Of a stretch of DNA of 64,000 bases, positions 6,145 to 16,291 are shown piece by piece. Both the position numbers and the translations under genes were made by a program. The notes beneath the pieces were generated by a model. It did not search any database. It was not told the DNA's origin and saw only the letters and a list, made by a program, of their open reading frames with translations. How positions within the stretch are numbered: the first letter of the stretch is position 1; the number at the start of each line of letters is the position of its first letter. The stretch is from Pseudobdellovibrionaceae bacterium (GTDB lineage Bacteria > Bdellovibrionota > Bdellovibrionia > Bdellovibrionales > UBA1609), in the NCBI GenBank assembly GCA_947444305.1, contig CANEZP010000014.1:1-64000 (forward strand), in the 5' to 3' direction.

Positions 6145-7086
6145 CTAAATTGATTGATCCAACATTGCCTTCTTAACAGTCTCTAAGAACTTCGCGTTTA
6201 GCGGAACATGAAAGGTTGTCCATTTATCCGGTTGGTAAACTCCGGTATTGGGGGTACCTCGCCGCTCGGCTTGACGTAAAGCGGTTTCCGACTCTCTGTT
6301 CGCTATCGAAATTCCTATTAAAGTGTCACGACCATTCACGACACGTAACAATGATCCTCCGGACGCCCCTCGCCCAAAGTCGCAATTAGATTCCACCAAT
6401 GAAGTACGCTGTATGCCGTGTGTTTGCTTTGTCTGACATTCCTCAATGGATTTTGGTAAGTACTTTTTTTTTGTTTTAGGATCTATGCGATAGAAATCGC
6501 GAGCTTGTGCTGATACCGCAAGAACATCTTGGCCCTCTTTTATATCTAAGCTCTCTGGAATATCATACGGCGTGATACCTTCCAGCGGCGGATCTATCTT
6601 TAAGACCGCCCAATCATCGATAGCACGATTCTTGTTCGGACATTCCACGCCTGTGCCTTGCATACCGGAAACTTTGCTCACGCGTTCAGACTTGCCAATC
6701 TTAACGGTGAAAACACAAGATTTCGGATCTGCTATAGCTTTACATTTTTCCATGTCCATAAATCCGTGGCCCGCCGTGGTAATAACTCCCGTGGAACCAG
6801 TGAGCTGAGCCGTGAGCTCAGACCCATCGCATTTTAATATACCGGTAGGTGCAAATCGGTTTTGAACTGCAGTCAGCGGTTTTAATTTTTCTGCAGCAAA
6901 CTCTTCTTCAGTCCGACGGCCGTTTTCATCAACAACCCCTGTTTTGTGGGTTAGGCAGCGATAAGCTTCTATCAATCGTGAGGGTTCTTGGCATTCAGAT
7001 TCGGGACACTCATCAGCCCTGGTGCTAGCGGTAGAGATGATTAATAATAAAAAAATCAAAATTTCTAATTTAAAAAGTCTTGTCAT
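6145..7086 (-). CDS. Secreted trypsin-like serine protease, paralogue 1
   Basis: 313-residue S1/trypsin-fold peptidase with an N-terminal signal peptide (residues 1-24). The triad is complete: His107 in TTAGHGF, Asp158 in DDWAVLKIDPPL and Ser242 in GASGGSLL. The His motif reads TAGH, not the usual TAAH. Six or more cysteines are shared with the next two genes, fitting an extracytoplasmic protein. A conserved VVDENGRRTEEE segment precedes the catalytic domain and may be a propeptide or processing region. It is the most downstream of three tandem copies on the minus strand, and is 97 bases upstream of the 563-residue secreted protein. Base composition is more AT-rich than in the flanks. Confidence 0.88.
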   Translation of the reverse strand: MTRLFKLEILIFLLLIISTASTRADECPESECQEPSRLIEAYRCLTHKTGVVDENGRRTEEEFAAEKLKPLTAVQNRFAPTGILKCDGSELTAQLTGSTGVITTAGHGFMDMEKCKAIADPKSCVFTVKIGKSERVSKVSGMQGTGVECPNKNRAIDDWAVLKIDPPLEGITPYDIPESLDIKEGQDVLAVSAQARDFYRIDPKTKKKYLPKSIEECQTKQTHGIQRTSLVESNCDFGRGASGGSLLRVVNGRDTLIGISIANRESETALRQAERRGTPNTGVYQPDKWTTFHVPLNAKFLETVKKAMLDQSI

Positions 7087-8219: not shown

Positions 8220-9146
8220 TTAAAGTTTCCGATTTCCTACTGCAGTCTTTACGGTATTCAAAAATTTTGAATTTAGGGGAACGTGAAACGTAGCCCATTT
8301 ATCAACTACGTATGGTCCGGTGTTGGGCGTACCTCTTCGTTCAGCTTTTCGAAGCATTGCTTCAGATTCTCTATTGCCGATTGAAATTCCGATAAGCACG
8401 TCTTTACCATTCACAACCTTAAGCAGTGATCCTCCGGAGTTTCCACGGGCTAGATCACAATTCGATTCAAATAGTACGGTTCGCCCGACTCCGTAAGCCT
8501 TCTTGGTCTGACATTCCTCTATTGATTTGGGTAAAGTCTTCTTTTTTGTCACTGGATCTTTTCTCACGAAGTCGCGAGCCATCGCGGAAACGGAAATGAC
8601 GTCCGTATACTCCTTAACTTCTGGCTCATCGGGAAGTTCGTGAGGCGTTATACCATCTAAAGGCGGATCAATGGTTAGGACAGCCCAATCATGGTAGGTG
8701 CTAGCAAAATCTGGACAGCTGATACCGGTGCCCACCATTCCGCTGACCCGGCTTACTCGAATATTAGTGCCTACTTTTACGGTAAAGGTGCATTTCTCAG
8801 GAGTTGAAATCGTTTTGCAGCTGTCGGTGTCAACAAAACCATGACCGGCCGTAGTGACAAGGTTGTTTGCGCCGGTGAGCTGGGCCGATAGTTCAGAGCC
8901 GTCGCATTTCAAGATTCCGGTTGGTGAGAAACGGGTTTGTACGGCGATCAGCGGTACGGCCTTTTTTTGTGCGTATTCCTCTTCGGTATGCCGGCCGTCT
9001 TCGTCGACGACGGCCGCGTGTTGGATCAGGTCGCGGTAGTTTTCCATTGGTTCATTGGAGGCTAGACAGACGACGGCGATGGAAAAAGGCGAGAGGCCGG
9101 CCGCGCTGGTAAGAAGAAGAATAATGATACGTCCACGGTTAGTCAT
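8220..9146 (-). CDS. Secreted trypsin-like serine protease, paralogue 3
   Basis: 308 residues from ATG 9146, first of the three tandem copies. Residues 1-29 form a signal peptide (RIIILLLTSAAG...). The triad is His102 (TTAGHGF), Asp153 (HDWAVLTIDPPL) and Ser237 (GNSGGSLL). A VVDEDGRHTEEE segment stands where paralogues 1 and 2 have VVDENGRRTEEE. A longer frame to 9185 exists, but the hydrophobic signal starts at MTNRGR, so the shorter start is preferred. Sequence similarity between the three is high over the whole catalytic domain, pointing to gene duplication; small differences lie mainly around the Cys-rich loop after the catalytic His. Expected to act outside the cytoplasm. Confidence 0.88.
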   Translation of the reverse strand: MTNRGRIIILLLTSAAGLSPFSIAVVCLASNEPMENYRDLIQHAAVVDEDGRHTEEEYAQKKAVPLIAVQTRFSPTGILKCDGSELSAQLTGANNLVTTAGHGFVDTDSCKTISTPEKCTFTVKVGTNIRVSRVSGMVGTGISCPDFASTYHDWAVLTIDPPLDGITPHELPDEPEVKEYTDVISVSAMARDFVRKDPVTKKKTLPKSIEECQTKKAYGVGRTVLFESNCDLARGNSGGSLLKVVNGKDVLIGISIGNRESEAMLRKAERRGTPNTGPYVVDKWATFHVPLNSKFLNTVKTAVGNRKL

Positions 9147-9260
9147 ATGATTTTTGATTATAGGTGAACGAGGCGCGGTGCTCAACCTGGACTAGTTCAT
9201 ATTACAATTTGAAAGTGGCGCTGAAATTGCTCAACGGTTGCGCATACAAGACGAGGATGC

Positions 9261-9949: not shown

Positions 9950-12900
9950 TTAGTTTAAATCCGCTTCTTTATCTTTTTTGGAATGGCTTTCTAAACGCAT
10001 TTGCGCCAGGTAAGCCTCCCACTTCGACAGAAGTTGCGTTAAGGCCGCGGCCGTCGATGGGTTGGAATTAAGCTCGTTCAATACGGCGTGCAACGGTTGA
10101 TCGAACAACTTGCCGATTTCAACGCGTTGAAGGCGGTACGGGAGCGGTTGATTCAACGCCGACATTCGCAGCGTGTAATTCACGCGCGCTTCGTTCAACT
10201 CCAATTCGTTTTCGTGGAAGTCGATCTGCCGGGTCTCTAAGTACTCTTCTTCGAGTTGCAGCATGTGCGTGAGGCTATTCGGCGCCGCTCGGCCGGTGCG
10301 CAGGTAGTCGGCGCCCCAGAGGTCACGCGCAATGGTTGTTGCGCGCTTAACTAAATCTTCCGGACCCTCTAGCGCTCCGCCAAGGACTTCGTGGACACGT
10401 GACGCTTCATACTCACCTCGTGCGTCCAAGTAAACTTGCTTCGCGCGCTGTACTTTGCGGCGTAGGGCACGCAATTCCGGAGTGAAGGCGAGAATATTCG
10501 CGGCGGTGAGTTGTCCCTCTTTTTTTAACGACAAGAGGAAATTCGATTTTCCATGCTCGTAGACGGTATATAATTCTTTGTATGCCGCTAGGTTTTGCTC
10601 GACGTCTTTCGAGCGCTTGGCCAAGCCGGGCGAAGTGAGTTTACCGCTCTTCCACACGCTATCCCAGCCTTTCAAAAGACCGGCGCGCTTCGAGCGTAGA
10701 GCGCGTACCGAATCGTCTAGCTTCGCGAGACTTTGGGTTTTCCCGTCGCCGTTTTGGTCTTCAAAAACCGCCTGGTTCAGTCGCGCGATCTCACGGGCGA
10801 GCGCTTGGATGTCAGGTTGGTCCACCGGCGAGTAAGTGAAATTCAGCAATGAATCTTGGTGCGCTTGCAGCATCGCGGCCTGGGCGGGTGAAGCGACTCC
10901 TTCTGGACGTGCGAGCGTCATGATGTTCGCGCGCATATCATCGAGCGCTTGCTGACGGGCACGTGATTCAACTTTGTCGTACTCGGCGACAAACTCGCGC
11001 AGGCGGGCTTTGCGTTCGGGTGAATGGTCCATGACCAATTCACGCTCGGCGGTGCCTTGGTCGCGTACTTCCGGCGGTGTACGCACTTGCGCGAGCCGTG
11101 TGTCGAGCGCAACGCCGAAGCGGCCTTCACGTTTCTTCGTGAGCTCGGCCATCCGTTGATGAATTCGGCTGAGGTCTCCACGCAGGCGCGCGCGGTCACC
11201 CTTCTGCTCCTTTAAGCCCGAGGTGTATTCATCGTAGAAGGGTTTGTAATCATTGACGTGCCTGATCCCGAGCTCACTCAGTGTTTTCGTGAACTGAGCA
11301 TTCAACTGCGCAACGCCTTGCTCATAATCTTGGTCGACGAAGCCGGCGCGCATCGTCGCCTCAACCTCTTTGATGCGGGCGATGTAATCTTCCAACATCA
11401 CGCGGCGCTCGGGCGTGAGCGGCTTCGTAGCTAATTCCTCATGCGCGCGTTTCAATTTGTAATTCTCGGGTAAGTTGAGCCGCGCACGTAGAGCATCGAG
11501 CGCTTGTTTGACGGCGGGAATAGGTTGAACCCCGTCGGCCATTCTTTGAATTTCGGATTCGGCATTTTTGACGCGTGATACGAAAGCTTCAAGCTCATCG
11601 CGGCGAAGCGTCGTGCGCATGCGGCTGTCGGTGTCGCTCATCACGAACTCGACGCGGTCACGCAACATTTCGCGGAAGCCGAAAAAATTGGCGTAATGGC
11701 GGAACGAGCGCTCGACTAAATCCATCGCGGGGTCGCCGGTGTTTTCGACCGCGCTTAACGAACCTTCACCGTTCAGCACCGTGTCGCCGATGATCTTGTA
11801 GGTCTCGAGAATTCGCGTGCCATCGATGAAGCGGTCAAAACCGTTGTGCCCGGTCGGCTTTAAATCGGTTTCGTCTTTAGACTTCCAGTTCAATCCCGGC
11901 CCCAGCAAATAATATTGCGAGGGAGCTTGTAGGTTACCGAACACGAGATCGAACTGCGGCTCGCGCCCGACGTAGACTAATCCGTCGGCGGTGCCGACGA
12001 TCACGGTGAGTTTTTTTAGTTTGGCTTGCTCTTCCGGCGTCAAAGGCGGCAGCAGATAATCGAAGTCGGTCAGGTGGGTGAAGTAAGCGCCGACGTCCGA
12101 TGCTTTACCGTTGTTCAATAGGTTATTGAGAAAGTCGAAATCGGTGTCGGCGATTCGCGGTTTATATTTTTCGAGATTACGCTGGTACTCTTCTTCGAAA
12201 TCTAATTTTAGTTTTGGGTCTCCGCCCATGGACACGTCAATCGGCGGCGCCATAGAGATAAACTCGCTGATGCGCGAGTAGTTCGGGTCGAGCGACAAGC
12301 GATGCATGAACAGCGCGAACGATCCGCCCCAACTGTGACCCGTTAATACAATCTTCACTTTCGGATCGATCAACTGCTTAACGGCCTTCATTAACCAGTC
12401 GGCTTGTTTCTTAAAAGTTTCGAGGCCGTCGGGGTTGCGCGTGGCCCGCCCGTGTCCCGGCATATCGAGGCCGATCACGGGAATGCCACGCTTGCCAATT
12501 TCTTTCGCGATGCTCATGCCGTTACGCCCGGTCGAAGTTGGTGTACCGCCACCATGAACGTGCACAACCACGACGGGATACTCGGGCCCGACCAAAAATT
12601 TAGAAGGCGATGAAACTTTGGCTAACGGCAAGCTAAGGAACGCGGCGGTGCTGGTACGGCGCCCGTCCCAAGGGACGTCGACGTGAACGGGAATCGAGCG
12701 GCCTTCTTCAATCATATCCACCGCGAGCGGCGTCGTTGCGGTCGGCGCCGGCGTGTTGATGAACGAAACCCCGAACGGAAGCAATTGTTGAAAAGCCTGC
12801 GGCCCCTGCTCCCCCACTTGTTCGATGCGCGCTTGCTCTTCGATGTTGTCGAAGCCTGGCTTAGGCGTAAGCTCTTCGGCTTGAGTCGCGCGTATCTTTG

Positions 12901-13075
12901 TTCGTTCGGTCAATTGCCGCAACGTTTGCGCCGGCATGGCCTGCGTCCGCGTTGAACTCAAATCCATCAGGCAGCGATTGTTAATTTTGTTGTTGTGGCG
13001 ATTGGTGGCCGAAGCCGCGGGGGTCGTTGAGGCAAAGCTTAAGAGAAACGCAAAACCGAGTGCGGTAAAATTCAT
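9950..13075 (-). CDS. Secreted alpha/beta-hydrolase with a long C-terminal coiled coil
   Basis: 1041-residue exported protein. Residues 1-24 are a signal peptide. Residues about 125-440 form an alpha/beta-hydrolase: HVHGGG (oxyanion region, about 173-177), DMPGHGR, the nucleophile elbow GHSWGGS with Ser248, a likely acid in the GTADGLVY segment and a likely His in PTGHNGFDRF. The following 600 residues are almost wholly charged helix with heptad-like leucines, predicted coiled coil. Substrate is unknown; lipase, esterase or peptidase activity would all fit. The ATG at 13075 follows AAGGAT; a TTG three bases earlier is less likely. An alpha/beta-hydrolase joined to so long a helical rod is unusual, and the rod may anchor or oligomerise the enzyme in the envelope. 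Confidence 0.8.
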   Translation of the reverse strand: MNFTALGFAFLLSFASTTPAASATNRHNNKINNRCLMDLSSTRTQAMPAQTLRQLTERTKIRATQAEELTPKPGFDNIEEQARIEQVGEQGPQAFQQLLPFGVSFINTPAPTATTPLAVDMIEEGRSIPVHVDVPWDGRRTSTAAFLSLPLAKVSSPSKFLVGPEYPVVVVHVHGGGTPTSTGRNGMSIAKEIGKRGIPVIGLDMPGHGRATRNPDGLETFKKQADWLMKAVKQLIDPKVKIVLTGHSWGGSFALFMHRLSLDPNYSRISEFISMAPPIDVSMGGDPKLKLDFEEEYQRNLEKYKPRIADTDFDFLNNLLNNGKASDVGAYFTHLTDFDYLLPPLTPEEQAKLKKLTVIVGTADGLVYVGREPQFDLVFGNLQAPSQYYLLGPGLNWKSKDETDLKPTGHNGFDRFIDGTRILETYKIIGDTVLNGEGSLSAVENTGDPAMDLVERSFRHYANFFGFREMLRDRVEFVMSDTDSRMRTTLRRDELEAFVSRVKNAESEIQRMADGVQPIPAVKQALDALRARLNLPENYKLKRAHEELATKPLTPERRVMLEDYIARIKEVEATMRAGFVDQDYEQGVAQLNAQFTKTLSELGIRHVNDYKPFYDEYTSGLKEQKGDRARLRGDLSRIHQRMAELTKKREGRFGVALDTRLAQVRTPPEVRDQGTAERELVMDHSPERKARLREFVAEYDKVESRARQQALDDMRANIMTLARPEGVASPAQAAMLQAHQDSLLNFTYSPVDQPDIQALAREIARLNQAVFEDQNGDGKTQSLAKLDDSVRALRSKRAGLLKGWDSVWKSGKLTSPGLAKRSKDVEQNLAAYKELYTVYEHGKSNFLLSLKKEGQLTAANILAFTPELRALRRKVQRAKQVYLDARGEYEASRVHEVLGGALEGPEDLVKRATTIARDLWGADYLRTGRAAPNSLTHMLQLEEEYLETRQIDFHENELELNEARVNYTLRMSALNQPLPYRLQRVEIGKLFDQPLHAVLNELNSNPSTAAALTQLLSKWEAYLAQMRLESHSKKDKEADLN

Positions 13076-13278
13076 CAATTATCCTTCGAGCGGTGGAGGT
13101 ATGAAGTTGTCACGCGGGCGCCGCTGCATTCCAAGGGCAAAGATTTCAGGCACTTGAGCTTATAAGCGCGAATAGTTTTGCTAATGATGAATGTTTTGTG
13201 ACTGAGAATGCCGCTTTCGCCCGGCAAAATCGCACGCGCGAGCGCTTTTGTCTGGTCTGTTTCACGCGAATTTCTTAC

Positions 13279-13599: not shown

Positions 13600-14379
13600 T
13601 TATTTAATTGGGATGTAAACGGATTCGACTAAGGCTTGTGTGTGTTCGGCGAGTTCGGTGGTGTCGGATTCTGCCGTCGTTGGGATCGGGGCTAAGAAAG
13701 TGAGTTCGACTTCCGCCCCGCCTTCGCCCGTTAAACGCCAGAGGTGCGGGATAAAATCCATGTCGCCGTACCAGAAAACATTGTCGCGATTCGCGAGCGT
13801 GACCGGGGCGCCGCCGATCGTGCGGTAATTCAAAATGAACGGCACGACCGGAACGCCCGCCGTGACCGCGGAGTAATACAAAGGTTTGCGGAAGCGTAAG
13901 ATTTTTTCGCCGTTGGTGCTCGTCGCTTCGGGGAAGATCGCGACGTTTAAACCGTTGCGTAAACCTTCTTCGATCTCGCCGACTTCGTTGACCAGGTTTC
14001 TTTTGTTTTTGCGATCGACGAACAAGCAGCCCGCCATCATGCAGATTTGGCCGAGGCCGATTGAGCGTTTGATTTCCGTTGAAGTGACGAAGCACGTAGG
14101 CAAGTGCGAAGCGATGACCGTGACGTCGGTGTACGTGAGGTGATTGCCCACGAACAGCGCGCCGTTCAAACCGCGCAAATGTTCCAGCCCGAAGACCGTG
14201 CGGCGGATGCCGAGGACCCAGCACGCGAAGCGGCCCCAGTAAGATAGTAATTTATTTGACACCCGAACGCGTTTCCAGCGGTTGCGAACGACGAGCCACA
14301 CGAGGCTCATCGCCGTAAGAAAGCTGGCGACGACGATCACGACCCCGAAGAGGCGCAATGGGCGGAGTATTCTGCGCAT
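13600..14379 (-). CDS. plsC: 1-acyl-sn-glycerol-3-phosphate acyltransferase
   Basis: Membrane enzyme that acylates lysophosphatidic acid to phosphatidic acid in phospholipid synthesis. 259 residues, with an N-terminal hydrophobic segment (about residues 8-30). The acyltransferase motifs are NHLTYTD (the HX4D catalytic motif, about residues 78-84) and FPEATSTNG (the substrate-binding motif, normally PEGT, here PEAT). ATG 14379 follows AAGGG with good spacing. It lies 25 bases after the protein-glutaminase gene on the same strand and probably shares its transcript. Confidence 0.88.
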   Translation of the reverse strand: MRRILRPLRLFGVVIVVASFLTAMSLVWLVVRNRWKRVRVSNKLLSYWGRFACWVLGIRRTVFGLEHLRGLNGALFVGNHLTYTDVTVIASHLPTCFVTSTEIKRSIGLGQICMMAGCLFVDRKNKRNLVNEVGEIEEGLRNGLNVAIFPEATSTNGEKILRFRKPLYYSAVTAGVPVVPFILNYRTIGGAPVTLANRDNVFWYGDMDFIPHLWRLTGEGGAEVELTFLAPIPTTAESDTTELAEHTQALVESVYIPIK

Positions 14380-14404: not shown

Positions 14405-15193
14405 CTAAAGCCAAGGCGGCAGATCGCCCAATTCTTTCTCGGGATTGCGGCCGAGACGTTGGAGGCGTTGCCACTCGGCATCGAGGTACGACGGCTGATC
14501 GTAGAGCGCGGTACTTTCAACACCGTCCGACTCGCGTTGGCAGGCGTCGTACGGAGTGTAGCTGCCCGAACCGCAGACGGCGACTTCGAGTGAATCCGGG
14601 TTTTTGCTCATCGTCGCGAGCCAGTCTTCGAGGCGCAAGGGATTCTTGGCGTCGATCGCGGGATCGAGAACGTACTTTTGGCCGGCGACTTCAACGAGCG
14701 GCGCGACGTGGTACCACCAAGTGACCTCACCGTCGGGCGAGTTTTTCGTTTGCACCGTCAAATCGCCGAACACAAAAACTTTTTTCGGTACGGGCACGTT
14801 CATCTTGCCCAAATTCAAAATCGCGAGGGCTGCGCGCGCGAAGCAACCGTCGTCGGGATAAAGCCAGCTTGAGCGGCGAGCGAAACCGGGCTTGCGGTCG
14901 CTCTCGATGAAACGCAGGTCGCGAAACTTTTCGAAGTTGCCGTTCATCTCGGTAACGCCGGACCAGACGGTCGCCGTAGGTAAATTATTTTTATTTGTAC
15001 CGAAGGCTTTGGCTTCATCGACCGGCGTGCTGAGCGACGGCGGCAATTGACCTTGCGACATCGTGTGCGCGTAAGCTTTGTAGGCTAAGTACGAAACACC
15101 GGGCTTGCGGTGCGCGGACCGTGACTCCAGGCCCGAAGCCCAGCCGAACGTGCTCGAAACGAGAGATGCGACTAACAATAAACTTTTTAACAT
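14405..15193 (-). CDS. Secreted protein-glutaminase (protein glutamine deamidase)
   Basis: 262 residues with a signal peptide (1-19). The catalytic domain closely resembles the Chryseobacterium protein-glutaminase family, which converts glutamine side chains in whole proteins to glutamate: DDGCFARA with nucleophile Cys117, VFVFGDL, WWYHVAPLV with His162, and YVLDPAI with Asp177 make up the Cys-His-Asp triad in the family's order and spacing. The 90 residues between signal and triad may be a propeptide, as in that family. ATG 15193 has a GGGGGG ribosome site. Such an enzyme acts outside the cytoplasm and could modify target-cell proteins or raise protein solubility. The assignment rests on motif matching by eye. 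Confidence 0.82.
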   Translation of the reverse strand: MLKSLLLVASLVSSTFGWASGLESRSAHRKPGVSYLAYKAYAHTMSQGQLPPSLSTPVDEAKAFGTNKNNLPTATVWSGVTEMNGNFEKFRDLRFIESDRKPGFARRSSWLYPDDGCFARAALAILNLGKMNVPVPKKVFVFGDLTVQTKNSPDGEVTWWYHVAPLVEVAGQKYVLDPAIDAKNPLRLEDWLATMSKNPDSLEVAVCGSGSYTPYDACQRESDGVESTALYDQPSYLDAEWQRLQRLGRNPEKELGDLPPWL

Positions 15194-15343: not shown

Positions 15344-16291
15344 ATGATTCGCCTCCGCGTTCACCTATTCGCCGCCGCCCTCCTGCTTACCGCGACTTCC
15401 GCCGCCCATGCCGGACTGTGTGGACATTGGGAAGCCCCGAAATTTAGCGGCAATCTTTCGCCGAAGGATGTGCGCGAGGCCAGCGGGATGACCACGTCGA
15501 AACTGGTGAAGGACCGCGTGTATTGGATCAACGACTCGGGCGATAAAGGTTTCGTTTACTACAGCGACGCCGCCGGCAAAAACATGCGGAAGGCAAAGGT
15601 CGCCGATTACAAACCCCGCGACACCGAAGCGATCGCCTTAGCCGAATGCGCGGAGGGACAATGTCTCGCCCTCGGTGACATTGGTGATAATTTAGGCACG
15701 CGCAAACATGTTAAGATTTCGTTCGTGCGTGAACAAAAAGAATACGACGGCGAGATGAAAGTTCTGCGTACGCTGACGCTTGAATATCCCGACCGCGCCC
15801 ACGATGCCGAAGCGCTCGTCTTTTTACCGAACGGTGATCTGTGGATCATCACGAAAGAGATCCGGCTGAAGTTTTTGGAAGTCTCGGCCGCGCAAGTTTT
15901 TGCGCTAACGAAAGCGGACTGGAGCGGGACCGGCGACAAAGAGTTAAAACTCAAAAAATTGGGCGAGCTGCCGCTACCGAAGTGGCTCAGCGAAGATTTG
16001 TTTTACACCCAAGCCGTGACCGACGCCGCCATCAATACGCAACGGCAAGTGTTGGGCCTGCTCACCTACGGCAAAGCGGTTGAGATCCCGCTGAGCAAGC
16101 TGCCCGACCTCGCGAACAGCATGAATTGGAAAAAGGACGTCGATTACGGTGTGCTCGCCATCGAAGCGCCGTTGCCGCAACAGGAAAGCATGACGTATCT
16201 CACCGCGCCCGACCGCATGGTGTGGAGTACCGAGTACCGTATGCCCGAAGCGCCCATTTTTTCGATGACCTGCGCCCGCCCCGCCCCTTAG
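15344..16291 (+). CDS. Secreted hypothetical protein, probable beta-propeller
   Basis: 315 residues, signal peptide 1-23 (LFAAALLLTATSAAHA). Repeating short strands such as YWINDSGDKGFVYYSDAAG, CLALGDIGDNLG and EALVFLPNGDLWIITKE give the look of a beta-propeller, with Asp/Gly turns that could bind calcium. The DTEAIALAECAEG segment resembles secreted proteins annotated as SdiA-regulated or phytase-like esterase, but this is weak. A GGAG ribosome site precedes ATG 15344. The next gene starts nine bases after its stop, so it probably heads the tesA-ybbA-ybbP transcript. Confidence 0.7.
   Translation: MIRLRVHLFAAALLLTATSAAHAGLCGHWEAPKFSGNLSPKDVREASGMTTSKLVKDRVYWINDSGDKGFVYYSDAAGKNMRKAKVADYKPRDTEAIALAECAEGQCLALGDIGDNLGTRKHVKISFVREQKEYDGEMKVLRTLTLEYPDRAHDAEALVFLPNGDLWIITKEIRLKFLEVSAAQVFALTKADWSGTGDKELKLKKLGELPLPKWLSEDLFYTQAVTDAAINTQRQVLGLLTYGKAVEIPLSKLPDLANSMNWKKDVDYGVLAIEAPLPQQESMTYLTAPDRMVWSTEYRMPEAPIFSMTCARPAP

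Follow-up and report, generated by a model that had tools for sequence, protein, structure and literature searches.

A predicted secreted member of the protein-glutaminase family from Bdellovibrionota belongs to a well-marked, uncharacterised subfamily

Introduction

A gene of a Pseudobdellovibrionaceae bacterium encodes a confidently assigned member of the protein-glutaminase family, which is found in a lineage where such proteins are expected and belongs to an uncharacterised subfamily. The gene was analysed in its window, the whole stretch of 64,000 nucleotides (contig CANEZP010000014.1) that was examined, and its features are collected in Table 1. We consider it probable that the product is a Sec-exported deamidase of this family that acts outside the cytoplasm, likely on prey or environmental proteins, and is possibly activated by cleavage. 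Most work on protein-glutaminases has concerned Bacteroidota enzymes used in food, and enzymes of this type now appear to belong to the regular set that Bdellovibrionota export. If the subfamily is active, protein deamidation would be linked to bacterial predation, and a varied and so far unexplored group of deamidases, with a shorter pro-region, would become available. To our knowledge, no subfamily member has yet been assayed; the literature searched contained no such assay, and the open literature yielded no report of an enzyme of this kind from Bdellovibrio or Legionella.

Table 1. Positions in the window of the glutaminase-like gene, the parts of its product, and the adjacent acyltransferase gene
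Feature	Coordinates	Strand	Details and basis
Glutaminase-like gene	14405..15193	minus	ATG at 15193, stop codon 14405-14407, 262 aa; ORF, PF18626, PDB, and model
Predicted Sec signal sequence, about residues 1-20	15134..15193	minus	Hydrophobic N-terminus, judged by inspection
N-terminal region, about residues 21-74	14972..15133	minus	Conserved S26, invariant R29 (alignment A1)
Gln_deamidase_2 core domain, residues 86-195	14609..14938	minus	Pfam match; same coordinates in genome search
Catalytic Cys117 codon	14843..14845	minus	Motif RRSSWLYPDDGCFARA; aligned to Cys42 of 2zk9
Catalytic His162 codon	14708..14710	minus	Motif WWYHVAP; aligned to His83 of 2zk9
Catalytic Asp177 codon	14663..14665	minus	Motif VLDPAI; aligned to Asp103 of 2zk9
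Subfamily-specific C-terminal part, residues 207-262	14408..14575	minus	Invariant Cys207 and Cys218, tail LGDLPPW
PlsC-type acyltransferase gene	13600..14379	minus	PF01553, E 4.2e-20; 25 bases past the glutaminase stop codon

Assignment to the protein-glutaminase family

The predicted protein matches the Pfam profile PF18626 (Gln_deamidase_2) with an E-value of 9.7e-29 and a score of 100.1 bits, where the cut-off is 25, and among PDB sequences it is closest to 8z3i (E 2e-10), with weaker matches to 2zk9 and 3a54 (E 2e-4 to 5e-4). Cys117, His162, and Asp177 align with Cys42, His83, and Asp103 of 2zk9 (numbering counted from the alignment), which we take to be the catalytic residues of the Chryseobacterium protein-glutaminase, and the sequences flanking the triad (YPxDGCxARA, WxYHVA, and DP) are common to the window protein and the solved protein-glutaminases. 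An initial annotation of this DNA had proposed a protein-glutaminase on the basis of Cys117 in DDGCFARA, His162 in WYHVAPLV, and Asp177 in VLDPAI. All three are found at exactly these residues, and the family claim is borne out by the profile, by the triad alignment, and by the predicted fold, the PF18626 match being the outcome of the profile HMM search suggested there as a check. An open reading frame does occupy the interval it had given, and we add the strand, which it had omitted: the gene reads from 15193 to 14405 on the minus strand.

The three residues are invariant across 29 divergent relatives (alignment A1), and the triad is unchanged down to 33% identity. Among 65 aligned family sequences the exceptions are one gap at the Cys and one at the Asp, both of which come from one gene split into two frames. 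A chance motif is ruled out by the PF18626 score, the matches to PDB sequences, and the conservation of the triad in A1. The NCBIfam model NF040782, an equivalog for the Chryseobacterium enzyme, scores the window protein at 45.7 bits, which is far below its cut-off of 250; it matches all 29 members of A1 weakly (best E 6e-16, and 5e-12 for the window protein), and is the sole NCBIfam model matched by the other members.

Predicted structure and proposed function

An AlphaFold model built with alignment A1 has a pLDDT of 89.9 and a pTM of 0.87, with less confidence in the Cys loop (pLDDT 76–82) and low confidence at residues 18–20, within the predicted signal sequence. Protein-glutaminases alone were retrieved by Foldseek below an E-value of 1e-3 (best E 3.8e-9), and with VIA-align the model matches 8z3i (Z 15.1, 182 residues, 3.8 Å), mature 2zk9 (Z 14.5, model residues 75–245), and the pro-form 3a56 (Z 14.4, model residues 11–244). 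By both sequence and fold the closest solved structure is thus 8z3i, the FBPG of Flavobacterium sp. 316, with 24% identity by Foldseek, although the C-terminal signature of the subfamily (see below) is not seen in the aligned part. The next fold group is human NTAQ1, the N-terminal glutamine amidohydrolase (4w79), which is also a Cys-type glutamine deamidase but has a Z of only 6–7, and which is described as acting on N-terminal glutamine only (PMC4214742). Structure prediction, one part of the second check proposed in the initial annotation, favours the protein-glutaminase fold, with a Z of 15.1 compared with at most 7.0.

A protein with the same fold and triad could nonetheless be mainly a transamidase or protease that cross-links, conjugates, or cuts proteins, or that acts on cell-wall peptides. 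The papain/transglutaminase superfamily mixes such activities (PMC10318531), the active-site neighbours are unlike those of classical members, and the model has a weak likeness to transglutaminases, arylamine N-acetyltransferases, and the LapG protease (VIA-align, Z 3.5–5). However, protein-glutaminases match far better (Z 14–15 against 7 or less) and the residues adjacent to the triad match protein-glutaminase, and we regard a transamidase or protease as unlikely.

The comparison with the Chryseobacterium proteolyticum protein-glutaminase (EC 3.5.1.44; 2zk9, 3a54, 3a56; NF040782) is informative both for the core and for the N-terminus. The two share the core domain and the Cys-His-Asp motifs in the same order, each has a secretion signal (predicted by inspection for the window protein) and an N-terminal stretch that precedes the catalytic domain, and the Chryseobacterium enzyme is among the best fold matches, although identity is only 19–23% over the structural alignments. 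Equivalent Sec-type signal sequences begin the relatives with intact starts that we inspected. The pro-forms 3a56 and 3a54 align with the model from about residue 11–13, whereas the mature enzyme 2zk9 aligns only from residue 75; the mature-enzyme part therefore begins near residue 75, which leaves about 50 residues between the signal sequence and the catalytic part. This region may be a pro-peptide, and at about 50 residues it is much shorter than the 114-residue pro-sequence of the Chryseobacterium enzyme (PMC6132073).

In the proposed mechanism, Cys117, activated by His162 and Asp177, would attack the side-chain amide of a protein glutamine; ammonia would leave and water would complete the conversion to glutamate. 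The enzyme would act outside the cytoplasm in the course of extracellular digestion, with proteins of prey or of the environment as its most likely substrates, and the short N-terminal region may keep it inactive until it is cut by a protease, as with the longer Chryseobacterium pro-sequence. Deamidation chemistry is supported by the predicted fold, the putative triad, and the flanking residues, and export by the signal sequence recognised on inspection; we infer the specificity for glutamine, the preference for deamidation over cross-linking or proteolysis, the activation by cleavage, and the target. We count in favour of an extracellular deamidase the abundance of the family in the phylum, the presence of the subfamily in 20 genomes of one genus (g34), and the secreted M64-family metallopeptidase encoded beside the gene in at least two Legionella loci. 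The low NF040782 score, the differing active-site neighbours, and the lower confidence of the Cys loop count against it.

Sequence marks of the subfamily

The 29 proteins of A1 have in common the invariant elements RR-x-x-WLYPDDGC-x-x-R, WW-x-H, Asp177-Pro, Cys207, and Cys218, together with a nearly invariant tail, LG-x-x-PPW. The subfamily is thus marked by WWYH and a conserved Cys pair, by LGxxPPW at the C-terminus, and by an N-terminal region that is short, and the C-terminal marks are absent from the other PF18626 members compared; WWYH, Cys207/Cys218, and LGxxPPW also distinguish it from the Chryseobacterium protein-glutaminase. A disulfide between Cys207 and Cys218 is plausible, and the model has a long helix at residues 225–246 within the C-terminal part. 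The PPW tail and the Cys pair are conserved marks to which no function is assigned. At two positions the active-site neighbours are unlike those of most other members (WW as opposed to W and a variable residue, and often DPA as opposed to DPS), so that the substrate preference may differ.

Other PF18626 proteins of Bdellovibrionota (L059, L061, and L063–L070) have the same domain and triad, and in many of them a signal-like N-terminus, but they usually have CYARAH and DPS and lack both the Cys pair and the PPW tail, which places the window protein in a well-marked subfamily. In some of them 350–550 residues precede the domain, whereas the window protein is much shorter N-terminally. The window's own genome has a second, divergent PF18626 gene (L059, G000:C2:360074-360391, minus strand) for a protein of about 340 residues with the motifs CYARAW, WKYHTAP, and ALDPSV, in which the triad is intact and the Cys pair and PPW tail are lacking. 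In five proteins of 500–730 residues from other families of the phylum (L064–L068, in genomes G046, G073, G101, G263, and G123), PF18626 is near the C-terminus, behind a long uncharacterised N-terminal part. Three gammaproteobacterial relatives (L029, L032, and L028) have a degenerate copy of the domain, without the Cys and His motifs, ahead of the intact catalytic domain, and this may be a built-in pseudo-enzyme or regulatory domain.

Distribution among genomes

Relatives were sought in 84,980 species genomes with patterns drawn from the window protein, such that distant groups may be missed; the 37 loci recovered are nearly all from Bdellovibrionota or Legionellaceae, the rest being in a few gammaproteobacterial or unclassified proteobacterial bins. 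With the Pfam profile, PF18626 was found in 180 of 291 sampled genomes of Bdellovibrionota, the phylum of the window (up to 12 matches each), and in 21 of 40 close relatives of the window genome, compared with two of 299 sampled Pseudomonadota, one of which is the chosen Legionella centre and the other below the cut-off. The sampling covered Bdellovibrionota and Pseudomonadota, and the former is a second regular home of PF18626. The initial annotation had described the gene as outside its usual setting, but the window genome belongs to Bdellovibrionales, and the gene is not out of place because PF18626 enzymes are common across this mostly predatory phylum. A lineage-specific expansion of PF18626, with as many as 12 matches per genome, is present in genus g113 (G254 and others).

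The subfamily itself is more restricted. At a threshold of E <= 1e-30, the A1 profile matches 62 of the 291 phylum genomes, nearly always in single copy, and 20 of these belong to genus g34, which includes Bdellovibrio sp. UBA4095 (G095). It also matches 13 of 45 Legionella genomes; two of the 13 have internal stop codons or a gene split between frames, and intact copies are present in others, which suggests loss of the subfamily in some Legionella species. Copies that look broken in these ways are L036 (Legionella norrlandica), G322, and G342.

That predatory-type Bdellovibrionota and intracellular Legionella have the subfamily in common is compatible with a dedicated effector, as the initial annotation had proposed, here one that deamidates a single regulatory protein after delivery into a prey or host cell, and a 2023 survey reported Dot/Icm type IVB secretion genes near PF18626 members (PMC10318531). 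However, the N-terminal Sec signal, as judged by inspection, speaks against a protein that is loaded from the cytosol into an injection machine, the neighbouring genes in the loci read mostly as housekeeping or extracellular-enzyme genes, and the Bdellovibrio-type loci are not effector islands. No Dot/Icm gene was recognised among the selected neighbours scanned in the Legionella loci examined, and no link to an injection system was seen among the neighbours inspected at any of the gene's loci. We find no basis for a novel injected effector, and a dedicated effector is highly improbable. The same distribution could be read as a distinct subfamily of secreted glutamine deamidases, common to predatory-type Bdellovibrionota and to Legionella living in amoebae, whose members would alter particular proteins of the prey or host as another cell is invaded and would be held inactive by an unusually short pro-region; we consider this quite unlikely. 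The probable reading is still that of an extracellular deamidase with a digestive role.

Genomic neighbourhood

In the window the glutaminase-like gene is followed by the PlsC-type acyltransferase gene, and the 25-base gap between them suggests a single transcript; the two are probably co-transcribed in the window's genus. The pair recurs in a congener (L003, Bdellovibrionales bacterium ACE_BDE2), and a related arrangement that keeps part of the pairing is present in L049. As the pairing was not seen further out, a conserved acyltransferase operon was rejected. Two Bdellovibrio-type loci (L025 and L035) have the gene among housekeeping-like genes, and for L025 the neighbours confirmed by Pfam are a LolA gene and a SPOUT methyltransferase gene.

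These arrangements bear on whether the enzyme might be periplasmic or on the outer surface, deamidating the cell's own envelope proteins in a maintenance role tied to the acyltransferase neighbour. Such a role would be in keeping with the likely shared transcript, with the mostly single-copy state of the gene, and with its position between housekeeping genes in the two Bdellovibrio-type loci, but the acyltransferase pairing is confined to close relatives and most of the phylum lacks the subfamily, which 62 of the 291 sampled genomes have; we think such a role very unlikely. An extracellular deamidase acting on proteins of prey or the environment is again preferred.

Among the Legionella loci the neighbours include purine genes, an M64 peptidase, alpha-2-macroglobulin, and malic enzyme. 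In L007 and L008 the next gene encodes the secreted M64-family metallopeptidase (L007:6796-8178 and L008:6746-8110), which is a candidate activator or partner of the Legionella glutaminase-like enzyme. An ORF of similar size and start in L037 (L037:6636-7994) is probably the same gene. One RasGEF-domain gene lies about 3 kb from the glutaminase-like gene in L013.

Carriage by mobile elements was also considered. Phage cargo was rejected, as 50,697 phage records gave no match, viral contigs gave no confirmed one, and no PHROG was matched; plasmid cargo was rejected as there were only three weak partial matches; and an anti-phage defence protein was rejected as there was no PADLOC match.

Several other genes near the glutaminase-like gene encode secreted-looking proteins or proteases. 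Its divergent neighbour (15344-16291, plus strand) encodes a secreted-looking protein of 315 residues with no Pfam match, a homologue of which holds the same position in L049. A secreted-looking protein of 1042 residues (9950-13078, minus strand), conserved in the congener L003, has an alpha/beta-hydrolase domain near its N-terminus and a long charged C-terminal part, and two trypsin-like proteases (6145-7086 and 8220-9185, minus strand) are encoded within 9 kb of the gene.

Phylogeny and selection

In the tree the window protein groups with its congeners (100/93) and next with L071, whose genome belongs to a different family of the phylum (97/95), and the Legionellaceae form a clade with one sequence from an unclassified proteobacterial MAG (99/97). 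The deep branches have no firm order in the tree, so that a recent single transfer from one phylum to the other would be only a possibility. Substitutions within the genus fall predominantly at synonymous sites, with dS near or beyond saturation; in the sole pair for which dS could be estimated, dN is 0.43 against a near-saturated dS of 2.72, a pattern in these sequences that would fit purifying selection.
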